DNA of 32,598 bases from positions 1 through 32,598 of the forward strand of contig JAKFYF010000003.1 in assembly GCA_021731005.1 (NCBI GenBank), in the 5' to 3' direction. The notes beneath the pieces were generated by a model. That model did no database searches. It was given only the letters and a program-made list of their open reading frames with translations, and was not told the DNA's origin. The translations under genes and the position numbers were made by a program. Positions 23,086 to 32,598 of this stretch are shown piece by piece. The first letter of the stretch is position 1. Each line of letters starts with the position of its first letter. This DNA comes from Hyphomonadaceae bacterium. GTDB taxonomy: Bacteria; Pseudomonadota; Alphaproteobacteria; Caulobacterales; Aquidulcibacteraceae.

Positions 23086-23475
23086 CTAGGGGGCAAGCAC
23101 TTGCACGAATTGGCCCCCCGCTGCGCTGAGCCGGCCATCGGCGGTCCAAAGCGCGGAACACGCGTGATGCTGCGCACAGGCAAGGTGCAGGGCGTCGGGC
23201 AGCTTCAACGAGGAGAGCGCGCGAAGACGGGCGGCATTAACATAGACCTCCTCTGGCATGCCGAGCCGAATGAAACGCCCGAAGACGCCCTCGAAGTTGC
23301 GCTGCAGCGGAAGATCGTGGGTTTTGAAGGGCAAAACGAGGCATTCGCCGACCACCAGCGGCGAGATCGCAAACTGAGTTGAGGCCGCAGCCGCAATAGC
23401 CTGATCGACGCGCGCAAACCAAACCGGGTGTTGTTGCACGAGGTAGATGACGAGACAGGAGTCGAGATAGATCAA
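23086..23475 (-). CDS. VapC-type PIN-domain toxin
   Basis: A 129-residue PIN-domain ribonuclease. The acidic metal-binding residues are in place: Asp5 in MIYLDSC, Glu44 in VVGECLVLP, Asp94 in LPDALHLA and Asp113 in TADGRL. Such toxins cleave tRNA or rRNA when released from their antitoxin. The start is TTG at 23475, overlapping the antitoxin stop (TTGA), which implies translational coupling and low toxin yield relative to antitoxin. The pairing is with a Phd-type antitoxin, not a VapB, as is common for this PIN subgroup. Confidence 0.88.
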   Translation of the reverse strand: MIYLDSCLVIYLVQQHPVWFARVDQAIAAAASTQFAISPLVVGECLVLPFKTHDLPLQRNFEGVFGRFIRLGMPEEVYVNAARLRALSSLKLPDALHLACAQHHACSALWTADGRLSAAGGQFVQVLAP

Positions 23476-23732
23476 TCCCAGGCCGCTCGCTCTTCGGCAA
23501 TGAAGGCGTCGATTTCCTCAGCGCTACGACGCGAACTCTCTGGCAGCGGATTTTCTTGGAGCCATTTGAGGATGCTAGCCCCGGTCCCGATCTGAGGCGC
23601 CACTGGATTAGCCGCCACCAGCCGCGCCACGGGCTCTCCCCGATTGGCGATCACCACCTCTTCGCCGGCCTGCACCGCGCGCAAAAGCTCGGAAAGCCGG
23701 TTCTTGGCTTCGAGGACATTTACCTTGATCAT
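23472..23732 (-). CDS. Phd/YefM-type antitoxin
   Basis: An 86-residue antitoxin. The N-terminal DNA-binding Phd fold reads MIKVNVLEAKNRLSELLRAV followed by GEEVVIANRGEPVARLV. The C-terminal acidic tail (SAEEIDAFIAEERAAWD) is the part expected to wrap the toxin. I chose the ATG at 23732; a TTG two codons upstream (23738) is also in frame. No Shine-Dalgarno sequence is visible, so the mRNA may be leaderless. Directly upstream is a pair of direct repeats that could be its own operator. Confidence 0.88.
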   Translation of the reverse strand: MIKVNVLEAKNRLSELLRAVQAGEEVVIANRGEPVARLVAANPVAPQIGTGASILKWLQENPLPESSRRSAEEIDAFIAEERAAWD

Positions 23733-23763
23733 GGCCAAGTTGGTAACACAACCTGGCTAAGTT
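23732..23763 (-). promoter_or_regulatory. Candidate toxin-antitoxin operator: two direct repeats
   Basis: TGGCCAAGTT (23732-23741) and TGGCTAAGTT (23754-23763) are direct repeats 22 bases apart, about two helical turns, with GGTAACACAACC between them. One touches the antitoxin start codon. Phd antitoxins repress their own promoter at such repeated sites; the assignment here is from position and pattern only. Confidence 0.45.
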
Positions 23764-27592: not shown

Positions 27593-27665
27593 TATGGACC
27601 GCCGGCGTCCCGCCGGCTTTGTTGCATCACGCAAAGAAGGGCCGGCGGGACGCCGGCGGTCCATA
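27593..27665. repeat. Long perfect inverted repeat (GGACCGCCGGCGTCCC type)
   Basis: Two 25-base arms, 27593-27617 and 27641-27665, are exact reverse complements, with a 23-base loop that itself has TTTG...CAAA ends. It lies between convergent gor and the secreted-protein gene and could fold into a very stable hairpin in either transcript, acting as a terminator or an RNA-stability element. The arms follow the same design (a GGAxCGCCGGC word, then its complement) as the GGAGCGC repeats, but the sequence differs. Confidence 0.8.
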
Positions 27666-28522: not shown

Positions 28523-29395
28523 ATGCCCGCGCGCTTGGTGTCAGTGATCAACATGAAGGGCGGCGTCGGTAAATCGACGACGACCGTTTCGCTTGCGGAA
28601 ACATTGGCGCTGCAGCAGCGCCGGCGCGTGCTGATCATCGATCTCGATCCGCAGACCAACGCCTCGATCATGGCGGCGGGCTCGGAAAAGTGGAACGCGA
28701 TGCGCGAGGCCGAACGCACGCTCGATTTTTATTTCGAATCCTACATCGTGCAGCAGCGCCCCAAGCCGTTCAAACAATTGATCGAGCACAAGGTCAGCGA
28801 TTTGAAGGGCAAGCCCGACGTTTCGCTGTGCGCGTCCGCGCCCGAGTTCCGCATTGTCGAACGCGACATGATCGAGAATTTCGTCAAGCGCGGCTTCCAG
28901 ATCGACAACATCCAGAAATGGATTTGCGAGCGTTTCGCCAACGGCATCAAGAGCGTGATCAACGATTACGACTACATCTTGATCGATTGCCCGCCGGGGA
29001 TTTCGCTGTTCGCGGAAGCGGCCTTGATCGCCGCCGATGCTATCCTGGCGCCGAGCATTCCCGATTACGTGTCGCGCCTCGGGCTCATCTCGTTCCGCAA
29101 GCGGGCGCTCAGGCTGATCAACGAGCGCCGCGGCGGCCCGTCGCAGTTGATGGTGCTGGCGACCAAGTACGACGATACGTTTTCGCTGCATCGCTCGGAG
29201 GCGCAATTGCTCAAGGACAATCTGGGGGAGGCCATGTTCGACGTGCGCATTCCCCAGCATGTCGACATCGCCAAGGCGGCCGAGTGGTCGGACACCCCGC
29301 GCACCTTCGATCAGAAGTACGGCGCGATGGCGACCACGATCGCCAAACTGGGGGAAGAATTCCTCGCCAAGGTGGAGCGTGCGCCGGCCTTATGA
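28523..29395 (+). CDS. ParA-family partitioning ATPase
   Basis: A 290-residue deviant-Walker ATPase: INMKGGVGKSTTTVSLAE with the signature lysine pair (KGGVGKS, residues 12-18), Walker A' LIIDLDPQTNASI, and Walker B DYILIDCPPGISLFAEAAL. An insertion (FDFYFESYIVQQRPKPFKQL region) between residues 72 and 95 and the lack of an N-terminal DNA-binding extension distinguish it from chromosomal Soj and plasmid type Ia ParA. It could position a protein cluster, chromosome region or other cargo. The stop overlaps the ATG of the next gene (ATGA), which is the likely functional partner. No parB or parS is visible. Confidence 0.88.
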   Translation: MPARLVSVINMKGGVGKSTTTVSLAETLALQQRRRVLIIDLDPQTNASIMAAGSEKWNAMREAERTLDFYFESYIVQQRPKPFKQLIEHKVSDLKGKPDVSLCASAPEFRIVERDMIENFVKRGFQIDNIQKWICERFANGIKSVINDYDYILIDCPPGISLFAEAALIAADAILAPSIPDYVSRLGLISFRKRALRLINERRGGPSQLMVLATKYDDTFSLHRSEAQLLKDNLGEAMFDVRIPQHVDIAKAAEWSDTPRTFDQKYGAMATTIAKLGEEFLAKVERAPAL

Positions 29396-29895
29396 GCCTC
29401 AACAAAACGCTCGACCGCTTGTTCGACGAAATTCGCCGCGAGGCGAAGCGCAATCCGGAATTTGCCGATCGCCTGGACGCGGTGATGCGGCTGCACGAGT
29501 CGCGGCGCGAGGTGGACGAGGAGGTTATCGAGGAGGTCGCGGCGAGCGTTTCCTCCCCCGCAAGCGGGGGAGGTCCGAGCGGAGCGAAGGGAGGGGGTAA
29601 GTCCGCCAACGCCGGCGTCCGCCCCCTCAGTCATCGCGCTGCGCGCGCTGCCAGTTCCTCCGCGGGCGGGGGAGCAAACCTCAATCCCACCGGCCTCTAC
29701 AAGCGCGAGGGCGAACCCGCGCTGCAGGATGCGCTCGCGGCCCAAGATCTGGGCGCGCTGCGCGCGCTCGTCGCCGAGCACAATCTCGACCCCTCCGGCG
29801 TGACCCCGTCGCTCACCCGCGACGAACTCGCCGCCCACATCCTCTCCCAAGCCAAACGCCGCGCCGAGCGCGACGAGAAGATGTTCGAGTACTAG
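29392..29895 (+). CDS. Small ParA-linked partner protein, interrupted by an in-frame repeat
   Basis: A 167-residue protein. Residues 1-53 are charged helix (TLDRLFDEIRREAKRNPEFA onward), and residues 103-167 form a second helical block (GLYKREGEPALQDALAAQDL onward) ending in RAERDEKMFEY. Between them, about 41 residues rich in S, G, A and P (SSPASGGGPSGAKGGGKSAN onward) are encoded by a dispersed palindromic repeat and look disordered. The end domains look like a conserved alphaproteobacterial protein of unknown function. Start ATG 29392 overlaps the ParA-like stop, so co-translation is expected. It could be the ParA cargo adapter; that is inference. Confidence 0.7.
   Translation: MSLNKTLDRLFDEIRREAKRNPEFADRLDAVMRLHESRREVDEEVIEEVAASVSSPASGGGPSGAKGGGKSANAGVRPLSHRAARAASSSAGGGANLNPTGLYKREGEPALQDALAAQDLGALRALVAEHNLDPSGVTPSLTRDELAAHILSQAKRRAERDEKMFEY
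29551..29674. repeat. Dispersed palindromic repeat (CCTCCCCC family) inside a coding sequence
   Basis: It begins with hairpin CCTCCCCC-GCAAGC-GGGGGAGG, followed by a GAGCGGAGCGAAGG linker, then AGGGGG...CCCCCT with an inner GCCGGCG, and ends with a CCTCCGCGGGCGGGGGAG segment. The plan (hairpin, GAGCGA-type linker, second G/C stem) matches the element at 32502-32598. It lies fully within the ParA-partner reading frame and keeps it open. Confidence 0.75.
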
Positions 29896-29901
29896 GGCGC
29901 T

Positions 29902-29940
29902 CCAGTTCCCCCGCTTACGCTCCGCGGGGGGAGAGGTGAC
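29902..29940. repeat. Partial repeat of the CCTCCCCC family
   Basis: Just after the partner-gene stop, CCAGTTCCCCCGC...GCGGGGGGAGAGGTG forms a hairpin (arms CCCCCGC 29908-29914 and GCGGGGG 29924-29930). It shares CCAGTTCC and the G/C arms with the right end of the element at 29551-29674. It may stop transcription between two convergent genes. Confidence 0.55.
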
Positions 29941-32477: not shown

Positions 32478-32501
32478 GCCGGCGATTGATGTTGAGCGCG
32501 G

Positions 32502-32598
32502 CCTCCCCCCTTGCGGGGGAGGTGGCGAGCGAATGCGAGCCGGAGGGGGCGCGTGCCGACACGCGAGCACCTGACGTGTCGGCGCGCCCCCCACCCCC
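32502..32598. repeat. Dispersed palindromic repeat (CCTCCCCC family), runs to the window end
   Basis: Hairpin CCTCCCCC-CTTGC-GGGGGAGG (32502-32522), a GCGAGCGAATGCGAGCCGG linker, then a large imperfect stem: the stretch around 32545-32563 (GCGTGCCGACACG core) pairs with 32575-32592 (CGTGTCGGCGCGC core). It begins 24 bases after the FolB-like stop. A frame starting at ATG 32474 runs through it to the edge but is mostly repeat. Confidence 0.7.

Follow-up and report, generated by a model that had tools for sequence, protein, structure and literature searches.

A dispersed palindromic repeat lies in frame in the linker of a ParA-partner gene in a genus of Caulobacterales

The window analysed here is the whole 32,598 nt stretch. 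A ParA-family ATPase gene and a partner gene overlap by 4 bases, and the partner gene carries a palindromic element assigned to a repeat designated family A. A palindrome of a second family, B, and part of a further element lie elsewhere in the window. The features are as follows, with R1 denoting a covariance model of the repeat.

28523..29395, + strand: ParA-family ATPase gene (Pfam AAA_31 2e-29, CbiA 7.8e-16)
29392..29895, + strand: ParA-partner gene, 167 codons, with predicted helices at residues 3-54 and 99-163 and an element-derived linker between them
29551..29674, + strand: family-A palindromic element, an in-frame insert forming residues 54-94 (R1 model bounds 29548-29677)
29548..29571, + strand: left terminal inverted-repeat arm, 24 nt, 83% complementary to 29656-29679
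29656..29679, + strand: right terminal inverted-repeat arm, partner of 29548-29571
32501..32598, + strand: partial related element 3' of folB (R1 16.3 bits, E 0.25, model positions 1-78), cut at its 3' side by the contig end
27593..27665, no strand assigned: family-B palindrome copy with 25-nt arms, 100% complementary

Additionally, of two adjacent small genes at 23086-23738 on the minus strand, one encodes a PIN-domain protein (Pfam 1.1e-10) and the other an antitoxin of the Phd/YefM type (2.2e-10); they are likely a toxin-antitoxin pair.

The element lies inside the open frame of the partner gene, as an earlier note on this DNA had stated; its first base is that of codon 54, its last base falls in codon 95, and residues 54-94 are encoded wholly by it. 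Its architecture is that of a nested palindrome of about 120 bases with several hairpins. In R1, the outer arms, one C-rich and the other G-rich, pair with each other end to end; each can also form a local hairpin, and further hairpins lie inside. The segment 29548-29680 has a predicted fold of -80.6 kcal/mol (z -4.1), and none of 200 shuffled sequences was equally stable. The window copy, which is among the 14 copies used to build R1, scores 107.4 bits; the calibration of R1 was short, so its E-values are rough. Rfam covariance models run against 29450-29780 gave no match up to E 1, and the plasmid collection searched gave none.

Blast of the element DNA against the source genome (G000) returned 41 matches at E<=1e-3, which correspond to 38 places, three matches being the opposite strand of places already counted. 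The architecture of an intergenic repeat, which the earlier note had ascribed to these roughly 124 bases, is thereby borne out, and the alternative it had raised, a sequence unique in the genome, did not hold. Nine copies are full length, including 29551-29674 itself, with 82-100% identity. Two other copies proposed within the window fared less well. Near 32502, next to a gene assigned to FolB by Pfam, a related element is present with its left part only, and its R1 score alone is not significant. The part copy at 29902 is a single short hairpin seen in the sequence by eye, which R1 does not report at E<=1. Family B has 96 two-strand matches in G000. The source genome is a bin of 373 contigs with 4.79% contamination, and contigs C6, C77, C124, C279 and C305 start or finish in, or a few bases from, repeat copies. 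Because contigs end at copies, the real copy number in G000 probably exceeds this count.

The repeat type spans the order. Counting both strands, R1 matches all 14 genomes of the genus that were tested, with 4 to 70 matches each among at most 150 candidates scored per genome. In a sample of 120 genomes from the order it matches 85, in 22 of 28 genera, among at most 29 candidates scored per genome; nine of these 85 genomes belong to the source genus. The behaviour inside genes described below is seen in this genus, the one surveyed for it.

Neither Pfam (at E 1e-3) nor NCBIfam (at E 1e-8) assigns the partner protein to a family, and a search of Pfam at E<=1 yields only sub-threshold matches. 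An AlphaFold model (mean pLDDT 73, pTM 0.42) has pLDDT below 50 exactly over residues 54-94 and helical parts on either side, in agreement with the suggestion that about 41 residues separate two ordered-looking blocks. The part encoded by 29677-29892 weakly resembles the peripheral-subunit-binding domain of E2 proteins (E 0.14-0.36); these matches are too weak for membership of that family to be claimed.

Of 61 genomes searched with the partner protein, 32 gave a match at E<=1e-3, some solely through repeat peptide located elsewhere, and 30 homologues were extracted, 28 from the genus and 2 from the family. Their N- and C-terminal parts are conserved and the linker is variable, so a linker shared by all distant homologues, which had been named as grounds against insertion, was not found. 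Element-free homologues have a P/A/K-rich linker of their own, and a P/A/S/K-rich composition is general in the linkers of the genus. Median linker length is 57 residues with the element (11 proteins) versus 45.5 without (18 proteins, including two from other genera; p 2.8e-5), the truncated G009 partner being excluded from these lengths as it is from A2 (29 of 30). The sharp gap predicted at residues 54-95 was not seen; by median length, linkers without the element are shorter by about 11 residues. Since this gain is far below the 41 residues encoded, the element appears largely to replace the older linker or to be trimmed.

R1 matches the partner linker in 12 of the 28 genus members, ten clearly and two weakly, which supports the proposal that the linker tolerates insertion; the other 16 have no R1 match there at E<=1. 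Scores of 59-107 bits were obtained in G000, G007, G028, G019, G011, G023, G006, G022 and G005. The G009 linker, cut by a contig end, scores 27 bits on the minus strand and 21 on the plus strand. The two weak matches, G018 (19.6 bits, E 0.053) and G020 (16 bits, E 0.3), are backed by blastn, with 51 and 46 nt respectively at 100% identity to dispersed copies. The element starts at a similar position in all 12 linkers. Judged from the phase of the first hairpin, the 12 copies are read 9/2/1 over the three sense frames, and G005, G018 and G023, which form one clade on a tree with some poorly supported deeper nodes, use three different frames. The C-run of G023 is one base shorter than that of G018, a 1-nt deletion that changes the frame. 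The element is in practice frame-neutral at this linker, one of two options that had been put forward. Copies are truncated in G018 and G020 and lack the right hairpin in G028, with the reading frame still open, and the G001 linker looks eroded relative to that of G011.

Copies in other genes were fetched around the top of the listed matches in G000, G007, G018, G005, G022, G009, G020 and G023, located by R1 and classified by a self-trained codon model alone. Through-frames suggested by first-pass ORF calls were rejected as noise; one such call concerned a copy between two genes, whose products resemble DnaN and RecF. Of 141 copies, 111 are intergenic, 20 lie in frame within genes, 7 form C-termini and 3 form N-termini. 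This count of frame-keeping intragenic copies, which the earlier note had called for, comes from a biased sample, the top of the listed matches, and is no unbiased rate; it is far below random at an assumed coding density of 88%. In all 20, the codon score is negative in the element and positive on both flanks. Eight and ten are read in two sense frames and two are antisense, so that 18 of 20 are in sense orientation (p 0.001 against the open-frame expectation). Four of the 20 are partner linkers (G000, G007, G005, G022). The other 16 lie in the following genes, named by NCBIfam or Pfam.

G018: pyruvate dehydrogenase (PDH) E2; a second E2-type acyltransferase; ligase-associated DEXH helicase
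G005: PDH E1 beta; a second E2-type acyltransferase; MutL
G007: a second E2-type acyltransferase
G009: PriA; LeuRS
G020: ChrA; ligase-associated DEXH helicase, at a site differing from that in G018
G022: GltB; UvrC; PutA
G000: MnmA; LeuRS

The stretches assigned to GltB and the DEXH helicase are incomplete and score below the curated cut-offs. In G018 and G007 the second E2 falls under every NCBIfam cut-off, but in G005 it has the Pfam E2 domains; 'branched-chain' would be a guess. Likewise, the C-terminus of RimP is formed by a repeat copy in five genomes (loci L140, L005, L073, L119 and L133), with differing ends and in two frames.

Insert-free orthologues were found for gltB, mnmA and leuS. 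For gltB, the match spans the insert only in G022 and breaks there in other genomes, except in G014, where it runs to residue 133; the loop was taken from 13 of 26 loci, and 12 extracted orthologues are continuous without the insert. The leuS gene has inserts in G000 and G009, a different and shorter insert in G010, and a short loop in 19 other extracted orthologues (22 of 30 were extracted, six more were scanned with R1 without a match, and two fell outside). The mnmA loop, extracted from 28 of 29 loci, holds family A in G000 and G003 by R1, in G009 a short fragment that looks A-like by eye, and, in G007, G017, G013, G005 and G022, an in-frame palindrome that by eye resembles the family-B copy at 27593-27665; the other 20 have a short loop. 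R1 was scanned over all 30 E1/E2 loci, 15 of 29 mnmA loci and 9 of 30 leuS loci. It matches PDH E2 linkers in G018, G016 and G022, weakly also in G008 and G028, and E1 beta linkers in G005, G009 and G022. Several other PDH E2 linkers carry a third motif (L278 1735-1860, loci L255-L281), with peptides like PSPLAGEGREGG ... PSPQGGGER. Taken from the G008 linker, this motif matches 14 times in G008 and 37 times in G007, counting both strands and partial matches, and is therefore read as a further dispersed repeat, C.

At E<=1e-20, leuS and mnmA each have one match in G000, so to judge from sequence the interrupted copies are probably the working ones. For MnmA of G000 the AlphaFold model is of low quality (mean pLDDT 56); it places the insert, residues 340-368, at low confidence between two strands, and is a hint only. 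Alignment of PutA with PDB shows scattered gaps across the insert and no single clean gap, and those of MnmA and PriA stop over the stretch containing it. Two intergenic copies common to G018 and G023 are missing at the collinear place in G005.

Marks of transposition were sought around 134 copies. A shared word of at least 6 nt near the ends occurs in 4 of them, versus about 3.6 in shuffled pairings, and the element was accordingly not classed as a MITE, a transposase-mobilized element with target-site duplication. The word TCACCCT, which flanks the G000 mnmA copy on both sides, was rejected as a target duplication, as such words are not enriched over the 134 copies. Y1 transposases (Y1_Tnp) are present in 16 of 30 genus genomes; among element-rich genomes they occur in G000, G007, G005, G009 and G022 and are absent from G018, G020 and G023. 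Across these genomes they do not track the element, and RAYT, the transposase type linked to REP/BIME sequences, is not supported as its mobilizer.

The reading we favour, at a probability of roughly 0.75, is that of a spreading palindrome kept inside genes where the frame holds in a flexible stretch, working in the manner of the Rickettsia palindromic elements (RPE). A dispersed multi-hairpin repeat would have been amplified in this Terricaulis-like genus (Hyphomonadaceae/Caulobacterales) and its copies would land in many places. Copies within genes would survive only where they keep the frame, introduce no stop codon when read in it, and fall in a linker, loop or tail that is flexible; the partner linker would be such a harbour, probably hit or overwritten more than once. 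With neither target duplication nor a tracking transposase, mobility is deduced from distribution alone, and movement may proceed via some enzyme or by replication or recombination of the hairpins. Given that codon scores are negative in all 20 copies and that truncated or eroded copies persist, neither peptide nor hairpins look conserved. The encoded peptide looks irrelevant and would be near-neutral. However, the sense bias of 18 of 20 argues against simple neutrality, as pure frame-neutrality predicts no bias.

The rival that survives best, rather unlikely as it stands and compatible with the favoured reading, is a single ancestral insertion in the partner linker, inherited and then altered through frameshifts, deletions and gene conversion with dispersed copies. 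The similar start in all 12 linkers, the G023 frame change relative to G018 and the eroded G001 linker against that of G011 fit such a history. Nearest relatives divide: for four linkers (G007, G019, G006 and G023) the nearest is another linker, a grouping consistent with an older shared insertion, whereas for eight (G000, G005, G009, G011, G018, G020, G022 and G028) it is a dispersed copy, in G000 and G022 one from the same genome. This test is weak, as 137 dispersed copies were set against 12 linkers and own-genome copies were included for only 8 of the 12 genomes. Presence on a five-gene tree is scattered, which also counts against a single event; 8 parsimony changes are needed for 12 of 28 tips, and shuffled labels give a mean of 9.3 with a fraction of 0.26 at or below 8, so the changes are not significantly fewer than shuffled. 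Additionally, families A and B at the mnmA site in different species need separate events.

A second rival, which we consider improbable, holds that the element is kept for a function as RNA, its hairpins in the mRNA delaying the ribosome between domains and aiding co-translational folding. The strong fold of the window copy and the favoured sense orientation would suit this, as would copies placed between domains in the partner, in the lipoyl-domain linkers of PDH E1/E2 and of the second E2, and in MutL, a placement read from sequence for all except the partner. Yet the frame stays open in linkers whose element is truncated, lacks the right hairpin or looks eroded, and the 16 genus members without an R1 match do without a recognizable copy. 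An artefact of assembly or binning is far less probable still: the source bin is fragmented and contaminated to the degree given above, with several contigs ending in or beside copies, but a clear linker copy lies in the single-contig genome G023, and eight further assemblies besides G000 have more than weak matches, which makes an artefact already unlikely for the genus as a whole. Convergence, by which GC-rich Ser/Gly/Ala linkers would look repeat-like through composition, draws on the P/A/S/K-rich linkers found even without the element and is refuted by 82-85% DNA identity over about 120 bases to eight other copies; the use of three frames and negative codon scores between positive flanks also count against it.

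Among known systems, RPE (Ogata et al. 2000, 2002) are described as palindromes of about 100-150 bp, present in many copies both intergenically and in frame in conserved genes (PMC2229807, PMC10969869), each encoding a conserved peptide according to PMC10969869. The resemblance to RPE proposed in the earlier note stands for the many-copy palindrome of that size, in an alphaproteobacterial host in both cases, and for in-frame insertion in conserved protein genes (20 of the 141 top-listed copies). It fails for the conserved peptide, since here the peptide changes with the frame, three sense frames and rarely antisense being used. The host order also differs, and here copies recur in one linker across many species; this comparison is by description. 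Wolbachia palindromic elements (WPE), named as protein-coding palindromic repeats in a title cited in PMC3733652 and PMC2229807, share that property to the extent of the title and occur in a different host.

The CIR repeats found in Caulobacter and related bacteria (Chen and Shapiro 2003) are described as inverted repeats of about 110 bp with a conserved GANTC and, in the account of PMC2229807, as not found inside genes. The likeness in size, inverted-repeat form and related host is evident; GANTC occurs in only 10 of the 141 copies from the top of the listed matches, and identity with CIR was rejected. ERIC/RU-1, YPAL/RU-2 and the 107-bp Correia element are presented in PMC2229807 as small palindromes that sometimes form in-frame gene fusions, and are listed there with target duplications, in contrast to the element here, which has none beyond chance. 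REP/BIME sequences are likewise dispersed short palindromes (as REPs are termed in PMC3733652), whereas the present element is a longer composite unit with copies inside genes, whose occurrence does not follow Y1 transposases.

A wider reading, held tentatively and at somewhat less than even odds, is that several unrelated families of self-spreading palindromes continually build and rebuild the flexible linkers of multidomain proteins in this genus, and possibly throughout Caulobacterales, in any open frame, the element giving length and disorder rather than a particular peptide. It draws on the mnmA loop, which holds A or B, and the PDH E2 linker, which holds A or C, according to species.

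In-frame palindromes in conserved genes are presented as a hallmark of Rickettsia, with more cases in Wolbachia and enterobacteria, in the accounts of PMC2229807, PMC10969869 and PMC3733652, and no description of them in Caulobacterales was found in the open-licence full texts searched. A genus of Caulobacterales now shows them in housekeeping genes, as in Rickettsia, and such repeats seem able to settle safely in flexible stretches of proteins. One clade with a predicted translation of the element in three frames at one site is a natural experiment that sets length and flexibility against peptide sequence. The roughly 30 genomes available make it possible to study the origin of new protein linkers and the cost of repeats that land in genes.
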